Positions 20,782-53,348 of a DNA stretch of 56,490 nucleotides are shown piece after piece. Origin of the DNA: Deltaproteobacteria bacterium (GTDB lineage: Bacteria > Myxococcota_A > Polyangia > Polyangiales > Houyiibacteriaceae); contig SHLP01000009.1 of the NCBI GenBank assembly GCA_004283055.1, forward strand, positions 1 through 56,490, given 5' to 3'. The first letter of the stretch is position 1. Each line of letters begins with the position of its first letter. The notes under the pieces were generated by a model. It did not search any database. It saw nothing but the letters and a program-made list of their open reading frames with translations, and was not told the origin of the DNA. Made by a program: the position numbers and the translations under genes.

Positions 20782-22329
20782 CTAGCCCCGAGGCTGCATC
20801 TGGCCGCTCTTGTATCGGCCCCAATAGTCCGTCAGCGCTTGCCGAACTTTCCCGCTCAGCAAGACCGCGCCGAGAATGTTCGGAAAGGACATACCGAGGA
20901 TCATCAGGTCGGAGAAGTCGATGACGTTCCCCAGCTTCAAGACCGAGCCGAACACGACGAAGACGAGGAAAAGCAGTTTGTAGAGCATCGAGAACTGCGC
21001 GCCGAAGAGGAAAGTCCAACAGCGTTCGCCGTAATAGCTCCACGAGATCATCGTCGAGAATGCGAAAAGGAAGACCGCGAGGCTGAGCACCTTGGGAAAC
21101 CAAGGCAGAACCGTAGCAAAGGCTTTGGACGTCATGAGGACGCCCTGTTGACCGCCCTCTTCGTACGCGCCCGTGATCACCACGACGAGACCGGTCATCG
21201 TGCAGACCAGAATCGTGTCGATGAAAGGCTCGAGAAGGGCCACGATGCCCTCGCGGACGGGTTCGTCGGTTGCGGCGGCGGAGTGCGCGATGGACGCCGA
21301 ACCTACGCCGGCTTCGTTCGAAAAGGCCGCACGCCGAAACCCCGTGACGAGGACGCCCAGCGCTCCGCCAAAGCCCGCCTCGGGGGTGAACGCCTGATCG
21401 AAAATCTTACCGAACGCCGGCCCGACCTGGTCGAGGTTCGTGAGGATGATGAAGAGCCCGGCGACCAGGTAGATGCCGCACATGACCGGGACGATGAAGC
21501 CCGCGACCTGACCGATGCGGCGGATGCCTCCGATGATGACGACGCCGACCAAGAAGGCCAGCATCACACCGTACGCGAGCGCGCCCCAGCCACCCGCGAA
21601 GAAGGGCAGCACGTCTGCGACCTGCGCGTAGCTCTGGTTCGCTTGGAACATGTTGCCGCCGCCAAAGCTTCCGCCGATGCACATCAAGGCGAAAAGAATC
21701 GCGAGGAGCCTGCCAAGTCGGGGAAGACCGAGCTCCGCGAGACCGCCCTGAAGGTATCGCATCGGTCCGCCCAGAATGTGTCCGTCCTCGCCGACTTCGC
21801 GGTACATCTGCCCGAGGGTGCACTCGGTGAATTTCGAGGACATGCCGAGGAAGCCCGCGACGATCATCCAGAAAATCGCGCCTGGGCCGCCCATGGCGAC
21901 CGCGACGGCAACGCCGGCAATGTTGCCGAGCCCAACCGTCGCCGAGAGGGCAGAGGAGAGCGCTTGGAAGTGGGTGACTTCACCCGGGTCGTCGGGATCG
22001 TCGTAGTGCCCGGTCGTCACGACCCAGGCGTGACGAAACGCCCGGATGTTGATGAAGCCAAACCGGAGCGTGAAAAAGACGGCCCCCGCGATGAGCCAGA
22101 AGACGATAAAGGGGAGCCGCAGATCGTGCTCGCTGCCGTTGTCCCAGAAGATCAGGTCGAAAAAGAGAACCTGCGCCATCGGGCCGACGACGTTGGCCCC
22201 GAACCACGTATCGACCGACTTGAGAAGGTCGCCGATGCTGGACGACTTTGCTGGCTCAGCCTCGGCGAACGCCACCCCCGGCCACAAATACACCCATAAG
22301 GCCGCAATCGTTCTCAGGCGTTTCCCCAT
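20782..22329 (-). CDS. Sodium:alanine/glycine symporter, AGCS family
   Basis: The 515-residue membrane protein imports alanine or glycine with sodium or protons. It begins with a hydrophobic N-terminus resembling a signal peptide (LWVYLWPGVAFAEAEPA), then has about ten helices. Family signatures include SATVGLGNIAGVAVAV, GGPGAIFWMIVAGFLGM, NEAGVGSASIAHSAA and FAFSTMISWSYYGERCW. I placed the start at the ATG at 22329; the open frame runs 71 codons further, but that part is not membrane-like. The gene is divergent from the CarH-like gene, and its leader of about 215 bases is unusually rich in TGGAG/CTCCA motifs. Confidence 0.92.
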   Translation of the reverse strand: MGKRLRTIAALWVYLWPGVAFAEAEPAKSSSIGDLLKSVDTWFGANVVGPMAQVLFFDLIFWDNGSEHDLRLPFIVFWLIAGAVFFTLRFGFINIRAFRHAWVVTTGHYDDPDDPGEVTHFQALSSALSATVGLGNIAGVAVAVAMGGPGAIFWMIVAGFLGMSSKFTECTLGQMYREVGEDGHILGGPMRYLQGGLAELGLPRLGRLLAILFALMCIGGSFGGGNMFQANQSYAQVADVLPFFAGGWGALAYGVMLAFLVGVVIIGGIRRIGQVAGFIVPVMCGIYLVAGLFIILTNLDQVGPAFGKIFDQAFTPEAGFGGALGVLVTGFRRAAFSNEAGVGSASIAHSAAATDEPVREGIVALLEPFIDTILVCTMTGLVVVITGAYEEGGQQGVLMTSKAFATVLPWFPKVLSLAVFLFAFSTMISWSYYGERCWTFLFGAQFSMLYKLLFLVFVVFGSVLKLGNVIDFSDLMILGMSFPNILGAVLLSGKVRQALTDYWGRYKSGQMQPRG

Positions 22330-22352
22330 GCCGGAGCCGAAACATGGCACAG

Positions 22353-22369
22353 TGGAGTGGATCACTCCA
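22353..22369. promoter_or_regulatory. Perfect 7-bp inverted repeat before the AGCS start
   Basis: TGGAGTG and CACTCCA flank GAT, about 24 bases upstream of the symporter ATG. In the transcript it would form a short hairpin just before the start codon. It could be an operator or a translation-control element; the sequence alone does not decide. Confidence 0.45.
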
Positions 22370-22545
22370 GTTTTGTCGGGCGTAGAAATTTCCTCAAATA
22401 TTGGAGTCCGCAGGCGGGAAAACGGCTCTCTGGTTTGGAGAACCGTCGCAGAGATCCCCTGGAGGCCCTGGAGCGGTGCGGATTCGGCGCGAACAGCCCG
22501 GAAACCAGACCTCTGGAGTCGCTTTGTTCGCCACTCAAACATAAG

Positions 22546-22573: not shown

Positions 22574-22595
22574 GATCTATCATTCTTATTGTAAA
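22566..22595 (-). promoter_or_regulatory. Candidate AGCS promoter
   Basis: On the minus strand TTTACA (22595-22590) and TTTATT (22571-22566) are 18 bases apart, matching consensus at five and four of six positions. The -10 falls inside the right arm of the inverted repeat. The implied leader before the symporter is more than 200 bases. Confidence 0.35.
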
Positions 22596-22627
22596 TCGAC
22601 CAATTCGACCGTAGTCTTCATGTAGTG

Positions 22628-23443
22628 ATGGAGCTGCTGAGTACATCCGATGCTGCCCGCATCATCGGAGTGGGGACGACCAGCGTAAAACGCTGGGCGG
22701 ATACCGGGCTCTTGGACTGCGTGCGAACAGCCGGAGGCCACCGACGTTTCACTCGTGATTCGCTGGATCGCTTCATCCGGCTGCAGTCCCACGAAGAGCC
22801 CGTGGCGACGGAGGTCGACCGCTGGCTCGATGCGCTGAGCTCCGACATGAGCCACGAGCTCGCCTTGGTGCGGGCGCGGAGTCGGCTGGGCTCCTGGCGG
22901 CGCGTTGCGGACGAGCTCGACCCCGTCCTGGCCGAGGTCGGCCGTCGCTGGTCCGACGGCGAGATGAGCATTGCGGAAGAGCACATCCTCACCGAGCGCT
23001 TGTCGCGCGCGCTGGCCCGCGTTTCCGAATCGCTTCCGCTGGCCCCGAATGCGCCCAGCTGCCTGCTCGCCTGCGTCGAATCGGAGGAACACACCCTCGG
23101 GCTCTCGCTCGCCGAGCTTTGCCTTCGTGAGATCGGCTGGGCGTCGGTCTGGATGGGCGCTCGCTCGCCGATCGAGGCGATCGCCGAGCGAGTGCGCGCG
23201 GACAGTCGTATTCGGCTGGTGGGTCTCTCCGCCACCGAAGCCTGCCGCGACCCGGCGCTGCTTCGCAGAGTCGTAGCGACCGTAGGGCTGGTCTGCAGCG
23301 AGAGAGACGTTGCTCTGATCTTGGGAGGCCGAGGGCCGTGGCCCGATGAGCCCCGCTACGGAGCGCGATGCGGGGTGATGGAAGGCTTTGCGGATTTGCA
23401 CAAGCAGCTGCGCGGAGCGCGCGAAGAACGGTCAGCGCTGTGA
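22628..23443 (+). CDS. CarH/LitR-type MerR-family regulator with B12-binding photoreceptor domain
   Basis: The 271-residue protein has an N-terminal MerR helix-turn-helix (STSDAARIIGVGTTSVKRW, then AGGHRRFTRDSLDRF). A four-helix bundle follows, with the CarH signature W-x9-EH in RRWSDGEMSIAEEHILTERL. The C-terminal cobalamin domain has the ExHxxG motif (ESEEHTLGLSL), an SxT-type segment (LVGLSATEAC) and the GG element (LILGGRGPW). CarH proteins repress transcription as adenosylcobalamin-bound tetramers in the dark and release DNA on light exposure. ATG at 22628 or the preceding GTG may start it. It leads an apparent operon with the sensor-phosphatase genes, and a 10-bp palindrome lies upstream. 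Confidence 0.9.
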   Translation: MELLSTSDAARIIGVGTTSVKRWADTGLLDCVRTAGGHRRFTRDSLDRFIRLQSHEEPVATEVDRWLDALSSDMSHELALVRARSRLGSWRRVADELDPVLAEVGRRWSDGEMSIAEEHILTERLSRALARVSESLPLAPNAPSCLLACVESEEHTLGLSLAELCLREIGWASVWMGARSPIEAIAERVRADSRIRLVGLSATEACRDPALLRRVVATVGLVCSERDVALILGGRGPWPDEPRYGARCGVMEGFADLHKQLRGAREERSAL

Positions 23444-23476
23444 TTCGCATCTCGAACAGTTGAAAGGAGGAACACT

Positions 23477-23590
23477 TTGGCGGCTCGCTCTTTCATCGCT
23501 AGCGATGCTGTAGCGGTATTCAGCAGCGTCGATTTCCTCCATGAGCCGAGGGGGGTGCTCACCAAGGTTGCGCCAGGCGGGAGCGTATGA
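23477..23590 (+). CDS. 37-codon ORF with a perfect ribosome binding site, coupled to the sensor-phosphatase gene
   Basis: AAAGGAGG lies six bases before a TTG start, an ideal Shine-Dalgarno arrangement rare in this window. The frame codes for 37 residues, beginning MAARSFIASDAVAVFSSVDF, and its TGA overlaps the ATG of the downstream 908-codon gene as ATGA. It is in a different frame from that gene, so it is not an N-terminal extension. It begins 33 bases after the carH-like stop. It may be a leader or coupling peptide that sets translation of the large protein, or a true small protein. I do not recognise its sequence. Confidence 0.55.
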   Translation: MAARSFIASDAVAVFSSVDFLHEPRGVLTKVAPGGSV

Positions 23591-26313
23591 CCCAGCCCGA
23601 ACCCATGCAAAGCACGCTTGAAGTGGAGACGCTCGCGGGGGAGCGCGTGTCTTTCGACGACTCGCGACGTCAGACGAACGTCCAGGGGCTCAAGGCTGCG
23701 AGCATCGTGGCATTCATCCTTCTGGCATCGTTTGCGCCGGTCGAGTACTACGTCGTTCCCGAGCACTTCCCTTTGCTTCAGGGGTTGCGCGCGGCCTGTC
23801 TGCTCGTTCTCGCGATGATCGCAGTAGTGGCATTTCGCGGCGAAGCTTGGACCCGCCGCCACGTCGACGTGCTCACCGTTGGAGCCTTCCTGATCGTCGG
23901 TTGGTACAGCATCGTCCTCATGTCGCTGCACGACGGCTACGAGTCGCCGTTCTTCCTCACGCTCGTCTTCAGCATCGTAGGAGTCAGCGCAGTCACCCTG
24001 TGGCCTCTGAGGACCGCATTGATTTTCATGGCGCTGATGATTGGATCATACCTCACGCCGCTTGTGGCCGGATGGGTCGAGTTGACCCATCCGGATACGT
24101 TCCTCATTCAACTAAGCTTCCTGCTCGGAATGGCGATCATCGGCGTCGTCGCGCAGCAGCTCCGCTACCGAATCGAACAAAGAGAGTTCAGAACGAATCA
24201 ACGCCTCGGGCGGACGAAGGCAACGTTGGAAAACGCCTACACTCGGCTCAAAGAGCTCGATGAACAGAAGTCGGATTTCTTCGCCAACGTCTCACACGAG
24301 CTTCGCACGCCGTTGACGCTGTCCTTGGGGCCCTTGGAATCGCTGCTCAAGATGGAGCACAGGGCAGAGGAGCAGGAGCATCTGCACGCGCTTCATCGCA
24401 ATCAGCTGCGGCTTCTTCGCTTGATCAATCAGCTTCTCGACGTCGCCAAAGTCGAGTCGGGGAACGCCCAGGCCGAATACAGCAAGGAGGACGTGGTCTT
24501 GGTCGTCCGCGAGCTCGTCGGCGAGATCGAGGAGGCCACGCGTGCCAAAGGCATCCGCCTGGATGTCATCGTCCCGTCAGAGCCCGTTTGCCTCTACATC
24601 GATCGCGAAAAATTCGAGCAGCTGCTGCTCAACCTCCTCTCGAACGCATTCAAGTTCACGGAGACCGGAGGGCGGATCGAAGTGTCGCTGATGCGCGGGA
24701 CCGAATCCAGTGAGATCGCCGTACGCGACACCGGAATCGGAATCCCGGAATCCAAGCTTCACACCATTTTCGACCGCTTCACCCAGGCCGACTCCTCCGA
24801 GACGCGTCAATACCCAGGAACCGGAATCGGTCTGGCGCTAGTCCAAAGCTATGTCGAGCTTCACGGTGGCACGATTGGGGTCGAGAGCACGGTCGGTGTT
24901 GGAACGACGTTTGCCGTCTCATTGCGTCACGGCAAGGCGCATCTGCCCGCCGAACAGATCCGAAGCGCCTCCAGGCCTGTGTCGATGACGAGCGTACGGC
25001 CGCCGCAGCTGACCGATTTCGACGTCGACGAGGGAGACGAGGCTGTCGTCGAGCGCGCTCCCGCGGGGGCGCCGGAGCCCCAGCGCGAGACGACGGAACG
25101 CCCCGAAGAAGCGGACTGGCTGCCTGATTCGACCGAGTCCGACGGCGAAGAACCACGGGTGCTCATAGTGGACGATACAGCGGACATGCGAAGGTACTTG
25201 CTGTCCCTTCTCCGGGAGGAATACGACGTCAAGACGGCCAAGAACGGGGCCGAAGGCTTGGCCCTCGCCAAAGACTGGGACCCCGATCTCGTCATCTCCG
25301 ATGTCATGATGCCGCTCATGTCCGGCTCCGAGCTGTGCAGGGCGATCAAAGCTGGAGGCGGGCGTCTCTCACGGACGCCCGTGATGCTCGTGACCGCTCG
25401 AACGGAAGAACAAACCAAGCTGCGCGGGCTCGACTACGGCGCGGACGACTATCTTCTCAAGCCGTTCCTTCAAGAAGAGCTCTTGCTTCGGGTTCGAAAC
25501 TTGGTGAGCAAGCGTCGTCAAGAGAGAGCGCTGTTCGATGCCCATTTGGTGCTCCGGGCCCAGCACCAGTACGTCCAGTCCGACCTCGAGCTCGCCCGTG
25601 ATTTTCAAAACGATTTGCTGCCCAAGCTCGAGATGCCGGCGCCCCTCACGGCACATGTCGAGTTCCACCCAGCCGATTTGGTGGGTGGGGATTTCTACCA
25701 CATCACACCGCTTGGCCCCGGCCGCGTCCGCTTGTTCCTCGCCGACATGGTCGACCATGGAGTCAAAGCGGCAGTACGCGCCGCTGCGGCCTTGCCTGAG
25801 TACACCGGGCTCGATCATACCGCCCTCGATGCTGGCGGAGTCCTCGAGAGTCTCAACGAGGTGGCCACGTCCAAGTACGCGGACCTGGCGGGAAGCTTCC
25901 TGTGCCTCGACCTCGATGCCAGCCGCGAGGGACATGTGTCGATCCGGTACGCGAGGGCAGGGGAAATGCCTTTCGTCGTCATCTCGGAGGCGGGCCCCAC
26001 CGAACCCCCCGCCGCAGCAGGGTTCATGGTCGGCCTCTTTCCCAATATGAGCTACCGGTCGCGGGCGCTCACGCTTTCCCCCGGGACCCGGTTGTTTCTC
26101 TACTCCGATGGGCTCTATACTCAAACGAATGGGTCGGGAAGGACGTTCCGCGACGAAGGCGGGCTGATGGAGGCGTGGGCGATGACGCGAGATTGTTCAA
26201 CTCTTCAAGCGGCGACCGAGAGCGTCATGGAATCACTCACGCGGTTTCGCGGCACGACGCCACAGTTGGACGACGTCACTTTGATTGGCATCGAGATTCC
26301 AGGACCGAGGTAA
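23587..26313 (+). CDS. Membrane hybrid histidine kinase with receiver and PP2C-type phosphatase domains
   Basis: The 908-residue protein has about six N-terminal membrane helices (residues 36-190) and a short coiled-coil linker. The HisKA domain carries the phospho-acceptor His237 in FFANVSHELRTPL. The HATPase domain has its N-box in LLNLLSNAFKFTE and G-boxes DTGIGIPE and GTGIGLALV. A disordered acidic linker leads to a receiver domain with Asp572 in VISDVMMPLMSG and the lysine in LLKPF. The C-terminus is a SpoIIE/RsbU-type phosphatase with Asp702 (GGDFYH), Asp720/Asp723 (LADMVDHG), Asp841 (YSDGLYTQ) and Asp896 (DDVTLIGIEI). One polypeptide can therefore sense, phosphorylate, receive and dephosphorylate. 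The two following small genes look like its partner-switch targets. Confidence 0.93.
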   Translation: MTQPEPMQSTLEVETLAGERVSFDDSRRQTNVQGLKAASIVAFILLASFAPVEYYVVPEHFPLLQGLRAACLLVLAMIAVVAFRGEAWTRRHVDVLTVGAFLIVGWYSIVLMSLHDGYESPFFLTLVFSIVGVSAVTLWPLRTALIFMALMIGSYLTPLVAGWVELTHPDTFLIQLSFLLGMAIIGVVAQQLRYRIEQREFRTNQRLGRTKATLENAYTRLKELDEQKSDFFANVSHELRTPLTLSLGPLESLLKMEHRAEEQEHLHALHRNQLRLLRLINQLLDVAKVESGNAQAEYSKEDVVLVVRELVGEIEEATRAKGIRLDVIVPSEPVCLYIDREKFEQLLLNLLSNAFKFTETGGRIEVSLMRGTESSEIAVRDTGIGIPESKLHTIFDRFTQADSSETRQYPGTGIGLALVQSYVELHGGTIGVESTVGVGTTFAVSLRHGKAHLPAEQIRSASRPVSMTSVRPPQLTDFDVDEGDEAVVERAPAGAPEPQRETTERPEEADWLPDSTESDGEEPRVLIVDDTADMRRYLLSLLREEYDVKTAKNGAEGLALAKDWDPDLVISDVMMPLMSGSELCRAIKAGGGRLSRTPVMLVTARTEEQTKLRGLDYGADDYLLKPFLQEELLLRVRNLVSKRRQERALFDAHLVLRAQHQYVQSDLELARDFQNDLLPKLEMPAPLTAHVEFHPADLVGGDFYHITPLGPGRVRLFLADMVDHGVKAAVRAAAALPEYTGLDHTALDAGGVLESLNEVATSKYADLAGSFLCLDLDASREGHVSIRYARAGEMPFVVISEAGPTEPPAAAGFMVGLFPNMSYRSRALTLSPGTRLFLYSDGLYTQTNGSGRTFRDEGGLMEAWAMTRDCSTLQAATESVMESLTRFRGTTPQLDDVTLIGIEIPGPR

Positions 26314-26317
26314 GCAA

Positions 26318-26737
26318 GTGCAGGACAGCGGCACATTCAAGTTGGACGACGGCAAGGACTTCGTCATCGAACATCGGCTCGACGACGAGGGCGGGCTCTC
26401 GATTTGGTTCCATGGGGGCCTGGTCGCTCGGCATGGGGGCCGTTTCGAACGCTATCTGAGCCACTTGGAGCAGCTTGCGCAGATCGCGGACGAGGCCAAC
26501 GTCGCCCACGTTCACTGCCATTTGGAAGATCTCGGAGAGGTGCTTTCCCGGGCGCAGCACGCGATTTACAGAATGCTGCATGCCATGCGCTCGCACGGGC
26601 GCTCCGTCACGATCTACGCAACGGGCGAAGCGCCCGAGCAATCCGAACACCTACGGATGTCTCGGCTCTTCGTTGAAGGTGTTTCTAAACAACCAGGCGC
26701 TCCGGTAAAGCTGACGGAAACTCGGCGGGCCTCATGA
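26318..26737 (+). CDS. Small STAS-like or SiaC-like partner-switch protein
   Basis: The 139-residue soluble protein starts at a GTG preceded by GAGG. It shows alternating strands and helices (LSIWFHGGLVA, VAHVHCHLEDLGEVL, RSVTIYATGEA) that would fit a STAS or SiaC (DUF1987) fold, but the classical DSxG phospho-serine motif is absent. LSRAQ, after the strand HCHLEDLGEV, is a candidate site. Assignment rests mostly on context: a PP2C phosphatase lies upstream and a HATPase-like switch kinase downstream, the usual trio of Rsb, SpoII, Hsb or Sia partner switches. Its TGA overlaps the next ATG as ATGA. Confidence 0.6.
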   Translation: MQDSGTFKLDDGKDFVIEHRLDDEGGLSIWFHGGLVARHGGRFERYLSHLEQLAQIADEANVAHVHCHLEDLGEVLSRAQHAIYRMLHAMRSHGRSVTIYATGEAPEQSEHLRMSRLFVEGVSKQPGAPVKLTETRRAS

Positions 26738-27285
26738 ACAATCACACTGACATCAAATATCAACTTGAAATTAGCCCTCTTCGCTTCAGTCCCGAGCTCG
26801 CGGAGTCCATCATTTTTGGCTTAAAGTGGACGCTCGGTGCGATGTTTGAGGATCCGTTCCCGGTCCGGGACGTGGTTGTCGCGGTGCGCGAAATCGTGGA
26901 CAACATCGTCACCCACGCCGACTGGGACCAGAACCCCGCGCCGTCGCTTCTCGTCAGCTATCGGTTGCAAAAGGGGCAACCCAAAATCCATGTGTCGTCG
27001 ACAAACGTCGCCAAAGACATCGACCAGGCGAAGCGCGCCGTGCGGTTCATCGACCAGCACGTCTCGAGCAAGACCTCGAACGTGCTCTGGCACGAATTGA
27101 CCAATCATCTGATCAGCTCGACCGACATTCGAAGCAATGGCGGCATCGGGCTCCTGCAGGTCGCCTCCTCCCCGCGATGCCGGCTCGACGTGAGCCTCGA
27201 AGGGACCCTGTTCTGCGTCCGGGTCGAAGTGGATATGCCCGACCTACACGCGACGGCAGCGTTGCCGAAGCGAACGGGCTCCTGA
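26734..27285 (+). CDS. RsbW/SpoIIAB/SiaB-like ATPase-fold protein
   Basis: The 183-residue protein looks like a one-domain GHKL ATPase. The N-box is in AVREIVDNIVTHA, with Glu53 and Asn57, and the late glycine motif is SNGGIGLLQVA (residues 134-144). The region between the two is divergent, as in SiaB (DUF6272) proteins, so nucleotide binding cannot be assumed. In partner switches such proteins phosphorylate a STAS-like antagonist and bind a sigma factor or other target. No sigma factor is next to it. ATGA coupling to the preceding gene argues for a complex of the two. Confidence 0.72.
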   Translation: MNNHTDIKYQLEISPLRFSPELAESIIFGLKWTLGAMFEDPFPVRDVVVAVREIVDNIVTHADWDQNPAPSLLVSYRLQKGQPKIHVSSTNVAKDIDQAKRAVRFIDQHVSSKTSNVLWHELTNHLISSTDIRSNGGIGLLQVASSPRCRLDVSLEGTLFCVRVEVDMPDLHATAALPKRTGS

Positions 27286-27470: not shown

Positions 27471-30400
27471 ATGGCAGTCGACTTGGTCGTTTTACCCCCT
27501 CGAACCGACTCGAACAGCCCCCTCAATCGCGAGGGGAGCAGGCTGGCAGCGCTGTTCATCGGTTTAGTTGTTTTATGCGCTTCGGCCGAGGTGCTGGCCC
27601 AATGCTCGACGGGAGACCTCGACCGGGACGGCGTCCCAGACGTGTGTCCCGCTGGCTCGAACTACATCGGCGGCTCCAGCGGGGACGACAAGCTTCGCGG
27701 CACCAACGGCGTGGACTGTCTCTTCGGCTTCGGAGGCGACGACCAGATCGACGGTCGTAAAGGCGACGACTACATCTGCGCTGGATCCGGGGACGACAAG
27801 ATCAAAGGCGGAAATGGCAACGACCAGCTCTACGGAGAGGGCGGCGACGACAAAATCGATGCTGGAAAGGGTGACGATCTGATATCGGGAGGGGACGGCG
27901 ACGACAAAATCGATGGCAAGGACGGCGACGACATTCTCATGGGCGGCGCCGGGGACGACGTTCTCATCGGCGACAAGGGTGCCGACACGCTCAGCGGAGA
28001 AGATGGCAACGACACGCTCGAGGGCGAGGGCGGCAATGATGCCCTGAGCGGGGGCGAGGGCTACGATATGCTCGACGGCGGCAGTGGCACCGACTCCTGC
28101 GTCGAAGAAATCCCCGGCACTTCGCTGGGGCTTTCGAACTGCAGCTTCGTGACGTACGCCGCAGTCAACGGATTCGAAGTGTCGCGAGAGGGCGGTTCAG
28201 TGACCGTCAGCTGGGAGACCAGCACCGAGGTGGGTACGGCCGCGTTTCGCCTTTGGCGCGTGGAGACGAACGGCGGCCTGGCATGGGTCGGCGAGCTCGC
28301 CGCCTCACCGGAGGGTTCTCCACACGGCGCCAGCTACTCGATGCGCGATGACTCTGCCCCGGCGAATGGAGCGCTCGAATACCTGCTCGAGGAGCGCACG
28401 GTCTCGGGGGGAAGCGTTCAGTACGGCCCTTACACCCGAGCGGTCCGATGGGACAGTCCGCGCGATGACCTGCCCCGCGCTAGGAGCCGTCTCGGTCGTA
28501 CTCCGCATCCGGTGGTGCTCCGACGTCGTTTGCGGCCGGCGAAGGCTCGCGCTGCGCTCGGGTTTGCGAGCAAGAGAGCTGCGCTCGATTCCGTCGCGGA
28601 GCTCCGAGTGGAGCGGGCGGGCCTCATCGAGGTGGACGCATCGGTCCTCGCGAGCGCGCTGGGCCTCACCCCGAGTGCCGTCGCGGCGTTGATTCGGTCG
28701 GGCGAGCTCGACCTTCGCCTGCGCGGCGCTTCGGTCGCCTGGCACGCCGCGCAGAACGGCGCCGCGATTCGCTTCGTCGCGCCCGTGATCGACTCGCCGT
28801 TTTCCTCCCATCATCGATACCTCGTCTCGATTGGGAAAGGGCTGACGATGCGGACGCGGACGCTGATCGAACGTATGCCGACCGAACCCCACCGGTTTGT
28901 CGAAACGAAGCGCTTCGAGGAGAATGTCTTCCCCGGCCCGACCGGTGCCCCCGACCCGCGGCAGGATCTGTTTTTCTGGCATGCGCTCTCGTCCGCGGCG
29001 AAGGCGGTGATTCCGGTTTCCTTGCCCGCTCTCGAAGCCCAAGGGGCCCGGGAGCTGCGCGTCGTGGTCCACGGGGCAACCGCCCACCCGGATCAGCCGC
29101 ACCGCGTCGAGCTCCACTGGAACGGCGAGAGCCTAGGCGTCTTCGATCTATTCGGACGCAGGCGTCACACGATGCACGTGTCTCTCGCGGAGCGCGAGGC
29201 CGATGTCGAGAACGAGCTGATCGTCGAGCAGCACGTGGCGGGCGAAGCTCCTCCAGCCCTCTACGTCGATGCCGTCGAAGTCGACTACCTCAGGCGCGCC
29301 GAAGCAGACGAGCCGCTGTTCCGCTTCGGAGGCGCCGATGACGGAGCGCAGTCGGTGACGGGTTTGCCTTCGAAGACCGTGCACCTCTACGACGTGACCA
29401 CGCCCGAGGAGCCCATCTACTACGGCGAGGCTCTTCTCGGGGCCTCCGGCGACCTGAGCTTCACAGCCGACGGCCCCGACCTTCGCTTCCTCGCCGCCGC
29501 GCCGGACAGCATTGCTGCGCCGAGCCTGGTACAGGCGCACGTTCCAACCGACCTTCGCTCGACGGATCGGAACGTGGACTACCTGGTCATCAGCGCCTCG
29601 CATTTGGTCGACGACGCACGCGCACTAGCGGACTATCGAACGGCGGACGGCTACCGCGTGCTTCTCGTCGATGTCGACGATATCTACTGGGCCTTCAGCG
29701 GCGGGGTGTCCGACCCGCAGGCGATTCGCGATTTCCTAGCATTCGCGTGGCAGCACTGGCAGACCGCGCCGCGCTTCGCGACGCTGGTGGGCAAGGGCAG
29801 CCTCGACTATCGCGACCTCATGGGCGTCGGGGGCAATTGGCTCCCGCCCGCGCTCGCCAACACCGACGGCGGATCGTTTCCTTCAGACTCGATGTTCGGC
29901 GACGTCATCGGGGACGACGGCGTTCCCGAGATCGCGATCGGCCGGTTGCCGATTGCAAACGGAGAAGAGCTCGGCCGCATCCTCGCTGCGATCGAAGCCT
30001 TTGAACGGGATCAGGCGTCGATGGACGCCTTGTTCGTCGCCGACGATTCCGGGCGCGATGAGTTCGCTGCCGCGGCGCGTGTTTTGGCCGATTGGGTAGA
30101 GCCCGAGCGAAGGCGACAGATCGATCTGAACACCGAGAGCCTCGAAGCCGCCCGCGATCGACTCTTCTCCATGTGGAACGGGCAGCTCGGCTGGCTGAGC
30201 TACGTCGGGCACGGCGGGCTCGACCGGCTGGCCGACGAGGGATTGCTGACACAGGCCGACATCGGGGAGCTCGTCGCGCTGCAGAGCCAGCCGTTCGTCC
30301 TCAGCTGGAGCTGCAACGTGGTCCGCTTCGATATGCCGGGCTTCTCGTCGCTCGGGGAAGAGCTGCTCACCAAGGGCACGACCGCAGGCGTCTTCGGCGC

Positions 30401-30821
30401 GACCGGCTGGTCGAATCACGTGGATGCCGACGCCCTCCGACGGGGCTTCACCGAGGCGGCCTTTGCCTCGGATGCGGAGACCGTTGGGGAGGCCGTGCTC
30501 GCCGCACATCGGGCCGCCGCCGGCGAGCCGGTGCAGCTGCATCAGGTGTACATGCTCCTCGGCGATCCGGCGCTTCGCCTTCGCGTCGCGCCGTCGGAGT
30601 CGAATCCAGCCGTCGACCAGGACGACGATTCCCCACTGGACGAGGTGTCCGATGCACGAGGTCCGGTCGCCGAACGGAGGCCGGGCTCGGCTTACGGCTG
30701 CGAAATCGCGCCATCGGGCGGCGCTGGGGGACCGCTCGGGCCAGCGGCGCTGCTCTTGGGCTTGACGCTCATGATCCGCGGGCGCCGCGGATCGCGAAAA
30801 CGCTGCCGCTGCCTTCATTGA
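27471..30821 (+). CDS. Secreted RTX-repeat, C25 (gingipain-type) cysteine peptidase with MYXO-CTERM-like tail
   Basis: The 1116-residue protein has a signal peptide (LAALFIGLVVLCASAEVLAQC) after a long n-region, and a calcium-binding DLDRDGVPDVCP motif. Sixteen nonapeptide RTX repeats of GxGxDxLxG type (residues about 69-212) follow and should bind calcium. A beta-rich middle precedes a C25/clan CD peptidase domain (about 700-1040). Its catalytic His914 is in SYVGHGG and Cys948 in LSWSCNVVR. The C-terminus has a small Gly/Pro stretch with one Cys, a hydrophobic helix (LGPAALLLGLTLMI) and an Arg-rich end, as in MYXO-CTERM sorting tails. A TAAAAT box at 27447 is a possible -10 element. Confidence 0.85.
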   Translation: MAVDLVVLPPRTDSNSPLNREGSRLAALFIGLVVLCASAEVLAQCSTGDLDRDGVPDVCPAGSNYIGGSSGDDKLRGTNGVDCLFGFGGDDQIDGRKGDDYICAGSGDDKIKGGNGNDQLYGEGGDDKIDAGKGDDLISGGDGDDKIDGKDGDDILMGGAGDDVLIGDKGADTLSGEDGNDTLEGEGGNDALSGGEGYDMLDGGSGTDSCVEEIPGTSLGLSNCSFVTYAAVNGFEVSREGGSVTVSWETSTEVGTAAFRLWRVETNGGLAWVGELAASPEGSPHGASYSMRDDSAPANGALEYLLEERTVSGGSVQYGPYTRAVRWDSPRDDLPRARSRLGRTPHPVVLRRRLRPAKARAALGFASKRAALDSVAELRVERAGLIEVDASVLASALGLTPSAVAALIRSGELDLRLRGASVAWHAAQNGAAIRFVAPVIDSPFSSHHRYLVSIGKGLTMRTRTLIERMPTEPHRFVETKRFEENVFPGPTGAPDPRQDLFFWHALSSAAKAVIPVSLPALEAQGARELRVVVHGATAHPDQPHRVELHWNGESLGVFDLFGRRRHTMHVSLAEREADVENELIVEQHVAGEAPPALYVDAVEVDYLRRAEADEPLFRFGGADDGAQSVTGLPSKTVHLYDVTTPEEPIYYGEALLGASGDLSFTADGPDLRFLAAAPDSIAAPSLVQAHVPTDLRSTDRNVDYLVISASHLVDDARALADYRTADGYRVLLVDVDDIYWAFSGGVSDPQAIRDFLAFAWQHWQTAPRFATLVGKGSLDYRDLMGVGGNWLPPALANTDGGSFPSDSMFGDVIGDDGVPEIAIGRLPIANGEELGRILAAIEAFERDQASMDALFVADDSGRDEFAAAARVLADWVEPERRRQIDLNTESLEAARDRLFSMWNGQLGWLSYVGHGGLDRLADEGLLTQADIGELVALQSQPFVLSWSCNVVRFDMPGFSSLGEELLTKGTTAGVFGATGWSNHVDADALRRGFTEAAFASDAETVGEAVLAAHRAAAGEPVQLHQVYMLLGDPALRLRVAPSESNPAVDQDDDSPLDEVSDARGPVAERRPGSAYGCEIAPSGGAGGPLGPAALLLGLTLMIRGRRGSRKRCRCLH

Positions 30822-51698: not shown

Positions 51699-53348
51699 AT
51701 GCGCATAGGCACATCGTACAAACAGCACCCGGGTCTCGCCGAGAATTGGGATGCCATCGTGATCGGGTCGGGCATCGGCGGTATGGCGGCGGCCGCTACG
51801 CTGTCCAAGCTGGCCGGCAAGCGTGTCCTCGTCCTCGAGAGGCACTACACCGCGGGTGGATTCACCCACACCTTCCGCAGGCCCGGCTACGAGTGGGATG
51901 TCGGGGTTCACTACATCGGAGACGTGAACCACCCGCGCGCGACCTCGCGTCGCCTATTCGACTTCATCACCGACGGGGAGCTCGACTGGGCCGACCTGGG
52001 CGAGGTGTACGACCGAATCATTCTCGGCGAAAACGCGTACGACCTGGTGAAGGGTTTCGAGAGCTTCCGCGCTCAGATGCACGAGTACTTCCCGCGAGAC
52101 AAAGACGCGATCGACCAGTACCTCGAGAAAGTGATCAGCACCGCCAAGAAGGCGCAGATGTTCTTCGCGGAAAAGGCGATGCCGCCCCTCGTCTCGAAGC
52201 TGTTCGGAGGGATGATGCGCAGGGGCGTCACCAAGGAGGCGCTCCGGACGACCCGGGAGGTCCTCGAAGACATCACCCAAAATCAGGAGCTGATCGCGGT
52301 GCTCACCGGCCAGTTTGGGGACTACGGACTGGTCCCTGCAGAGAGCTGTTTCTACATTCACGCGATGGTCGTAGCCCACTACCTGCGCGGCGCGGCCTAT
52401 CCGGTAGGGGGCGCATCCCGAATCGCCGAGACGATCGTTCCGGTCATCGAACGCTCCGGCGGCGAGATGCTGACCAACGCCGAGGTCACTGAGATCATCA
52501 TCGAGAACGAACGAGCCGTCGGCGTCCGGCTCGTCGACGGGCGCGAGCTGCGCGCTCCCGTGATCATCAGCAATGCCGGCGTCATCAACACATTCGAGCA
52601 GCTGGTGCCCGCCCCATTGGCGCAATCGATTGGATACGCGACCAAAGCCAGAGAGATCGGCGCATCGGTCGCACATCTGTCGCTCTACGTTGGGTTGAAG
52701 GGGACGACGGAGGAGTTCCAGCTCGAAAGAACCAACCTCTGGATCTATCCCGACCAGCACCACGAAAAGAATTTCCAGCGCTTCCTCGGGGACGTCAACG
52801 CGCCGTTTCCGATGGTCTACCTCTCGTTTCCGTCGGCCAAGGACCCGGACTTCGAACGTCGGTACCCGGGGAAATCGACCATCGAAGCGATCACGATGGG
52901 TTCCTATGATTCGTTCCGTCGTTGGGAAAACACCTCGTGGAAGAAGCGCGGCTCGGAGTATGACGAGCTCAAAGCGAGCCTTACCGAGCGCCTCCTCGAC
53001 AAAATCTACGAGCACGCTCCGGCGACCCGGGGCCGGGTCGAGGTTGCAGAGCTCTCGACGCCGCTCTCGACGCGGAATTTCGCCGCCCACCCCGAGGGCG
53101 CGATTTACGGCTTGTCGCACGACGCGCACCGGTACGAGCAGCGATGGCTCCGGCCGCAGACACCGATCAAGGGGCTCTATCTCAGTGGCGCGGACGTGGT
53201 GTCGGCGGGCGTCGTGGGCGCGATGATGGGCGGTTTCATCTGCAGTTCCGCCGTGCTCAGAGGCAATGTTCTCGGTCAGGTGCTGAAACACCAGGCGCAA
53301 ACCTTGCGCGACAATCCCCCAAGCACGCACAAAGCTGCGCCCGCGTAG
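51699..53348 (+). CDS. FAD-dependent oxidoreductase of the phytoene desaturase/retinol saturase type
   Basis: The 549-residue protein belongs to the CrtI/RetSat-like flavoproteins. The ADP-binding motif is IVIGSGIGGMAAAATLSKLA, followed by VLVLERHYTAGGFTHTFRR and the dimer or substrate segment YEWDVGVHYIGDV. The C-terminal FAD motif is GLYLSGADVVSAGVVGAMMGG. Members saturate or desaturate carotenoids and retinol-like polyenes. No carotenoid genes lie around it, so another polyene or fatty substrate is possible. An AGGAG site lies before the ATG. It is downstream of the TetR gene and probably under its control. Confidence 0.9.
   Translation: MRIGTSYKQHPGLAENWDAIVIGSGIGGMAAAATLSKLAGKRVLVLERHYTAGGFTHTFRRPGYEWDVGVHYIGDVNHPRATSRRLFDFITDGELDWADLGEVYDRIILGENAYDLVKGFESFRAQMHEYFPRDKDAIDQYLEKVISTAKKAQMFFAEKAMPPLVSKLFGGMMRRGVTKEALRTTREVLEDITQNQELIAVLTGQFGDYGLVPAESCFYIHAMVVAHYLRGAAYPVGGASRIAETIVPVIERSGGEMLTNAEVTEIIIENERAVGVRLVDGRELRAPVIISNAGVINTFEQLVPAPLAQSIGYATKAREIGASVAHLSLYVGLKGTTEEFQLERTNLWIYPDQHHEKNFQRFLGDVNAPFPMVYLSFPSAKDPDFERRYPGKSTIEAITMGSYDSFRRWENTSWKKRGSEYDELKASLTERLLDKIYEHAPATRGRVEVAELSTPLSTRNFAAHPEGAIYGLSHDAHRYEQRWLRPQTPIKGLYLSGADVVSAGVVGAMMGGFICSSAVLRGNVLGQVLKHQAQTLRDNPPSTHKAAPA

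Follow-up and report, generated by a model that had tools for sequence, protein, structure and literature searches.

Why would the gene for a B12-binding, possibly light-sensing repressor stand directly before the genes of a membrane-gated partner switch? CarH-type photoreceptors are known for carotenoid control. At positions 22628-27285 of the window (the whole 56,490-nucleotide stretch that was analysed, on contig C149 of G000, a 4.3-Mb draft genome of 293 contigs from the Myxococcota), the first-pass annotation had proposed one operon in which such a repressor sets the amount of the switch. Our comparison with related genomes suggests another answer, to which we assign a probability of roughly 0.7: what remains here is the regulatory part of an operon in which a photoreceptor governed a polyene synthase and a partner switch.

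Gene content of the locus

The five reading frames, their domains and the catalytic residues named for them were all found where they had first been placed. They share one strand and have ATGA or near-ATGA junctions, which bears out the coupling claimed for them. Shine-Dalgarno-like sequences precede the short ORF (AAAGGAGG) and the 139-aa ORF (GAGG). The features are as follows.

20782..22542, minus strand: sodium/alanine-type symporter (named from sequence); divergent neighbour of carH, outside the operon
22589..22613, plus strand: conserved block TTGTAAATCGACCAATTCGACCGTA, directly upstream of carH
22625..23443 (also read from 22628), plus strand: carH-like regulator, 272 aa; HTH_17/BldC-type domain and cobalamin-binding domain
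23477-23589, plus strand: short TTG ORF with ATGA overlap with the kinase start, made of the two parts below
23477..23518, plus strand: 5' stub of a polyketide synthase (PKS) gene; TTG start, Shine-Dalgarno AAAGGAGG; matches the start of the G011 (L113) PKS
23519..23589, plus strand: rest of the short ORF, in frame with the stub; probable thioesterase-end remnant of the same PKS (weak match)
23587..26313, plus strand: hybrid sensor kinase, 908 aa; six membrane helices, HisKA, HATPase, REC, PP2C/SpoIIE
26318..26737, plus strand: STAS-like antagonist (predicted fold), 139 aa; GTG start, Ser77
26734..27285, plus strand: SiaB (DUF6272)/RsbW-like GHKL switch kinase, 183 aa; ATGA overlap with the STAS-like gene
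27471..30821, plus strand: C25-family peptidase with RTX repeats; downstream neighbour

The orthologous start of the carH-like gene is the GTG at 22625, and the symporter beside carH is conserved in G006, G010 and G011. The C25 peptidase is of the gingipain/PorU type, has calcium-binding RTX repeats and matches MYXO-CTERM weakly. It is probably a gene separate from the operon; G010 has it whole, and G005 and G011 retain only its 3' end after the switch. On the same strand, 24 kb downstream, an ORF at 51699-53345 has a start resembling a CrtI/carotenoid-isomerase-type FAD oxidoreductase, a name taken from sequence only.

The photoreceptor homologue and its upstream block

By its motifs and profile scores, the regulator is a homologue of photoreceptors of the CtMerR type and carries a DNA-binding domain like that of BldC; it is not a CarH orthologue. 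In Pfam, it matches HTH_17 (41 bits) and B12-binding_2 (30 bits) and just misses B12-binding (29 bits, cut-off 32.1). The BldC/excisionase-type model NF033787 matches at 2.7e-11, under its cut-off, and the CarH equivalog NF052513 scores 54.6 bits against a cut-off of 400 bits. The adenosyl-capping motif Wx9EH is present (W108, E118, H119) and is kept in G006 and G011, with VH for EH in G010; the lower-ligand motif D/ExHx2G (E153-H155-G158), SxT (S201-T203) and GG (G233-G234) are present too. TSVKRWADTG replaces the RxWERRY recognition helix. The light-responsive cobalamin signature (SignatureFinder; GxxW, EH, GxxH, GxxxP) is incomplete, with GRRW, EH and GARSP found and SEEH in place of GxxH. 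Among solved structures, CtMerR is the closest (8JBS, 6.7e-24) and Thermus CarH comes after it; where Thermus CarH has its second histidine, the window protein has a Ser. CtMerR itself passes from a dark tetramer to a monomer in the light without the second histidine of TtCarH, having Arg there (PMC11796333). Of the earlier designation as a CarH-type light sensor, the assignment to the CarH superfamily of photoreceptors stands, while CarH orthology falls with the NF052513 score and the missing RxWERRY helix.

Directly upstream, the block TTGTAAATCGACCAATTCGACCGTA comprises a -35-like TTGTAA, a 17-nt spacer and the start of a -10-like TAGTCT, and we infer that it is a candidate promoter/operator of the operon. 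In a scan of 19 genomes, each of the 4 that possess this carH has a single block of this type, and no further block turned up (reversed control 0). One block per genome is consistent with one autoregulated operon, the operator role being putative; as the mark of a wider regulon the block was rejected on the same count. A sigma-70 promoter scan of the region stayed at chance level and did not flag it.

The kinase and the two small switch proteins

The hybrid kinase is recognised by Pfam throughout (HisKA 3.5e-15, HATPase 2.9e-27, REC 6.1e-26, SpoIIE/PP2C 7.4e-27 or 95 bits). Its six hydrophobic segments (34-189), His237, Asp572 and the PP2C metal-binding residues D702, D720, D723, D841 and D896 are intact and lie exactly at the positions first given for them.

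The 139-aa protein matches no Pfam family, STAS included, and its STAS-like identity comes from the predicted fold alone. Foldseek ranks SpoIIAA, RsbV and RsfB first for its AlphaFold model (pLDDT 69), with RsbS among the matches and SiaC at rank 50; the E-values are modest, the best being 1.7e-3. Ser77, invariant in 6 sequences, sits at the N-terminus of the second helix, which corresponds to the helix bearing the phosphorylated Ser in SpoIIAA. From the model, we infer a STAS-like antagonist with Ser77 as its predicted phosphosite. The SiaC model (PF09345) found no match in this protein at E up to 10, nor elsewhere in the genome, so that of the initial label "STAS/SiaC-like" the SpoIIAA/RsbV-like half is retained, as a predicted fold, and the SiaC half is dropped.

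For the 183-aa protein, the best fold matches of the model (pLDDT 74) are UsfX and SpoIIAB, and the best NCBIfam matches are RsbW models (4.8e-5). Its N-box VREIVDN and GGIGL are kept, with no obvious DxGxG G1 box. The SiaB model (DUF6272, PF19788; gathering score 26.6) matched neither this protein nor, directly, anything else in the genome, and the homologues in congeners reach 15.5 to 24.8 bits (up to 1.9e-5). Because these scores lie under the cut-off, we call the protein SiaB/RsbW-like rather than a member of the family; the name first given to it, "RsbW/SiaB-like", fits the predicted GHKL fold and the RsbW matches, short of full DUF6272 membership. A plain SiaB/SiaC label was rejected, as the PF19788 and PF09345 searches of the genome were without match. 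Neither small protein yielded a useful match when solved structures were searched by sequence profile. The close SiaB/RsbW-like family appears to be rare, since a profile scan of GTDB contigs returned the same six loci only, all in Myxococcota MAGs, and a 379-genome sample of the phylum yielded only weak further matches. As the first-pass annotation had remarked of the window, no sigma factor or other output gene was found near the locus.

A deletion scar between carH and the kinase gene

The genomes compared are drafts in many pieces, and most if not all are MAGs. In none of them does a single contig span the complete ancestral locus, and in G011 the carH-PKS part and the kinase trio lie on separate contigs, their joining being deduced from synteny. 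In G011, whose carH is 83% identical to that of the window, a TTG-started PKS begins ~30 nt after carH and runs off the contig as a 1120-aa KS-AT-ACP frame. The first 42 nt of the short ORF in the window agree with the start of this PKS at 32/42 positions. None of 200,000 random 42-mers from the window reached that value (best 26), and the identity between the two genomes collapses after about position 23518. Taken alone, the 3' half of the short ORF resembles the thioesterase weakly (score 30, 57/2000 shuffles; score 31, 176/10,000). In the equivalent ORF of G006, the start of the PKS runs into a fragment of the thioesterase (score 109 against the G010 thioesterase, 0/2000 shuffles), and on contig C237 of G010 carH is followed by ~60 aa of KS, the thioesterase end and then the kinase. 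To judge from these alignments, the short ORF is a deletion scar, a PKS start left between the carH and kinase genes, and carH and the switch genes are adjacent in the window because the PKS between them was deleted. The alternative of a small gene conserved in its own right was discarded, because what the genomes have is a stub that breaks off at a different point in each.

On contig C109 of G010, the whole thioesterase precedes the kinase. The two G010 loci (L019/L114, on C109 and C237) are 95.9% identical over 341 bp, one with and one without most of the PKS/thioesterase; apparently they are two strains or copies in one bin, and the deletion may be polymorphic within the species. In G005, carH, the kinase gene and most of the STAS gene are lost, leaving the last 20 STAS codons and the SiaB-like gene beside the symporter. 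This SiaB/RsbW-like gene (L017, G005:C11, 7128-7742) is intact, with 83% identity to that of the window, inside what is otherwise a deletion of the whole locus. The differently placed scars in G006 and G010 and the larger deletion in G005 indicate that the PKS was lost repeatedly while regulators were kept. Since the dS between G006 and G011 is smaller than that of either to G000, the losses in G000 and G006 are independent. For all four genes and all pairs dN/dS is 0.09-0.27, in pairwise values that mix the time before and after loss; this indicates purifying selection, and therefore regulators that have not decayed.

Related synthase loci

A PKS-thioesterase followed by this kinase family occurs in G002, G005, G006, G010, G011, G015, G043 and G048, and the kinase gene stands after PKS/thioesterase in G010, G043 and probably G048. 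In G043, from another family, a 2885-aa KS-AT-ACP-KR-DH-thioesterase protein is followed, with an overlap, by the kinase, STAS and SiaB-like genes in one run. As the trio occurs there without carH, carH is by this comparison a genus-level addition to it. The KS-AT-ACP-KR-DH PKS with a CalE7-type thioesterase was found in G043, G015 and G010, and as a 5' half in G011; the window holds the stub only. The thioesterase resembles CalE7, SgcE10 (an ACP-polyene thioesterase) and DynE7 (2.5e-11 to 3e-8), the PfaA model gives the PKS 476/1010 bits, and the product would naturally be taken to be a polyene.

A second, commoner locus type exists in the genus, in which the PKS-thioesterase is followed by a kinase-receiver-kinase of the same kinase family (about 36%), a receiver-ATPase and a 156-aa protein (L129, G005:C8, 6261-10728; L130, G006:C115, 1574-6029; L131, G010:C67, 1014-11541). 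The 156-aa protein, clear in L129 and L130, matches nothing in Pfam or NCBIfam and could be another small switch protein. The window genome retains a PKS of this second type on C251, 53% identical to the G011 PKS. In another family, a related PKS lies beside FAD-dependent oxidoreductase/halogenase-like genes (L134, G041:C236, 3404-15594), with no kinase in that stretch.

The proposed operon and its alternatives

To judge from these loci, the ancestral order in this genus was most likely carH-like gene, iterative type I PKS (KS-AT-ACP-KR-DH), enediyne-type thioesterase, kinase/receiver/PP2C, STAS-like gene and SiaB/RsbW-like gene. In the dark, the AdoCbl-bound repressor would occupy a single promoter upstream of its own gene; green or blue light would cleave the Co-C bond and release it, and synthase and switch would then be made together from one transcript. 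The membrane kinase may sense an envelope or lipid cue, phosphorylate its own receiver and so gate the fused PP2C. By analogy of fold, the SiaB/RsbW-like kinase would phosphorylate Ser77 of the STAS-like protein and the PP2C would remove the phosphate, the state of the switch deciding whether a target is released or sequestered. In the window genome, light, if sensed, would set only the amount of the switch, because the PKS is gone, and the target would lie elsewhere.

An operon built from the outset for carH and the membrane-gated switch, with light and B12 setting the amount of the switch and no synthase involved, was the design first proposed for this locus. In G000 and G006 the genes do lie side by side in one direction, are intact and are under purifying selection, and a second target in trans would make such a reading true of the present-day strain. 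Gene set, strand and coupling thus stand; direct adjacency as a design does not, as the carH-kinase junction is the scar of the PKS deletion, and PKS or thioesterase adjoins carH or the kinase in G011, G010, G043 and probably G048. Conservation of gene order, named with that proposal as a check, is likewise partial: the order recurs in G006 on one contig and in G010 and G011 on split contigs, but carH is followed by the PKS in G011 and the trio of G043 has no carH. We therefore regard a purpose-built operon as quite unlikely. A PKS gained by G011 through insertion between the carH and kinase genes, instead of lost by the others, might be argued from the absence of an intact PKS there in four of the five congeneric genomes that have the locus. 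Such an insertion is barely credible and was rejected, since pieces of the PKS or the thioesterase survive at the junction in G006, G010 and the window, with differing break points, and the kinase family follows PKS-thioesterase at other loci and in another family.

Two further alternatives concern the ends of the proposed pathway. The carH-like protein might respond to B12 status or act free of ligand, leaving the locus outside light control; the B12-binding score under the Pfam cut-off, the missing GxxH and the absence of a His after the Trp would fit, as would the canonical RxWERRY-type CarH homologues encoded elsewhere in the genome, on C124 and C207. Against this, Wx9EH and ExHxxG are intact, and CtMerR is photoactive though without the same His (PMC11796333). 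Moreover, close homologues (41-49% identity) in four other genera adjoin light-related genes: a photolyase (G027), a CrtI-like FAD oxidase (G181, G054) and lipocalin, SDR and RPE65-type genes (G165). This neighbourhood argues for a light role independently of the motifs, and we hold a regulator blind to light to be doubtful, if worth keeping in sight. At the other end, the 183-aa protein could act in the classical manner as anti-sigma factor of a SigB/SigF-type sigma whose gene lies elsewhere, as its SpoIIAB and UsfX folds and its RsbW matches would allow. A search of the genome for sigma factors with region 3 turned up three RpoD-like proteins and RpoH, with SigB/F/G models scoring at most 131/234 bits; no SigB/SigF/SigG-type sigma was found in this draft, in which a contig may be missing. 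A classical SigB circuit is disfavoured for that reason, and the DUF6272 matches of the congeners, though under the cut-off, also speak against it, which makes this assignment unlikely. As a separate observation, the two canonical CarH-like genes (L144, G000:C124, 3638-6319; L146, G000:C207, 3205-4830) each lie beside what their sequences suggest is a fasciclin-domain gene, perhaps another light- or B12-linked pairing.

Returning to the deleted polyene-synthase operon, a fuller version of it can be put forward tentatively, at somewhat less than even odds: a polyene-type PKS and its own kinase/PP2C/STAS/SiaB-like switch are jointly controlled by a B12 photoreceptor, the PKS was lost at least four times in one genus, and the switch has a second target in trans, for example the paralogous PKS-kinase locus of the window genome or an RpoD-like sigma. 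Such a target would be needed because the switch is under purifying selection although the PKS has been stripped out.

Implications

A carH-like clade heading a PKS operon would, if true, extend B12 light control to polyketides and provide a light-controlled counterpart of carotenoid operons, as well as a pointer to new, possibly light-protective polyenes. The steady pairing of these synthases with one hybrid-kinase family, and with a partner switch in one subtype, offers a new and testable mode of PKS control, and the repeated loss of the PKS with its regulators retained is a natural experiment on the roles of the switch beyond the PKS. The locus also illustrates that gene adjacency seen in a single genome can be a deletion scar.

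Comparison with known systems

The combination of photoreceptor, polyene PKS and partner switch points to an undescribed bacterial operon, with precedents for each half. In the open-access literature, we found no paper that joins CarH to a PKS or a partner switch, in agreement with the earlier statement that no described system with CarH driving such an operon is known. CtMerR (PDB 8JBS/8JBT; PMC11796333) shares with the regulator the BldC-type SVKRW...GGHRRF helix and a B12 domain with GxxW, EH and GxxxP and no His after the Trp; the window protein differs in having SEEH for GxxH, its light response is predicted, and the operon context of CtMerR is not described in the accessible part of that report. 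The CarH proteins of Myxococcales share Wx9EH and D/ExHxxG, and in Cystobacterineae carH lies within the carotenogenic operon that it controls (PMC9304148). Here, the carH-like gene similarly heads its own putative operon, but the RxWERRY helix is missing, NF052513 is far under its cut-off, and the partners are a PKS and a switch instead of carotenoid genes. The PKS of the relatives recalls iterative synthases of the enediyne/PUFA type in its KS-AT-ACP-KR-DH order and its hotdog polyene thioesterase like CalE7/SgcE10/DynE7, whereas the PfaA score is partial and the PKS is deleted in the window.

For the switch, SiaABC(D) (PMC7647112) likewise encodes a PP2C, a STAS-like protein and a DUF6272-like kinase together as separate proteins, whereas here histidine kinase, receiver and phosphatase share one chain, there is no SiaD cyclase, and the SiaC Pfam model is unmatched. 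The Bacillus cereus RsbKY-RsbV-RsbW-SigB pathway (PMC4574943, PMC9912610) offers the same succession of hybrid kinase, receiver-PP2C, STAS antagonist and GHKL kinase; in our locus kinase and receiver-PP2C form one polypeptide, and no SigB-type sigma was found in the genome. TciKR, which controls indigoidine in Vogesella (PMC12826045), couples a two-component system and an RsbW-like output to a secondary-metabolite pigment, but its RsbW-like domain is fused to the receiver and it has no PP2C, STAS or photoreceptor. HsbR-HsbA (PMC6482189) provides a further precedent for the switch half.
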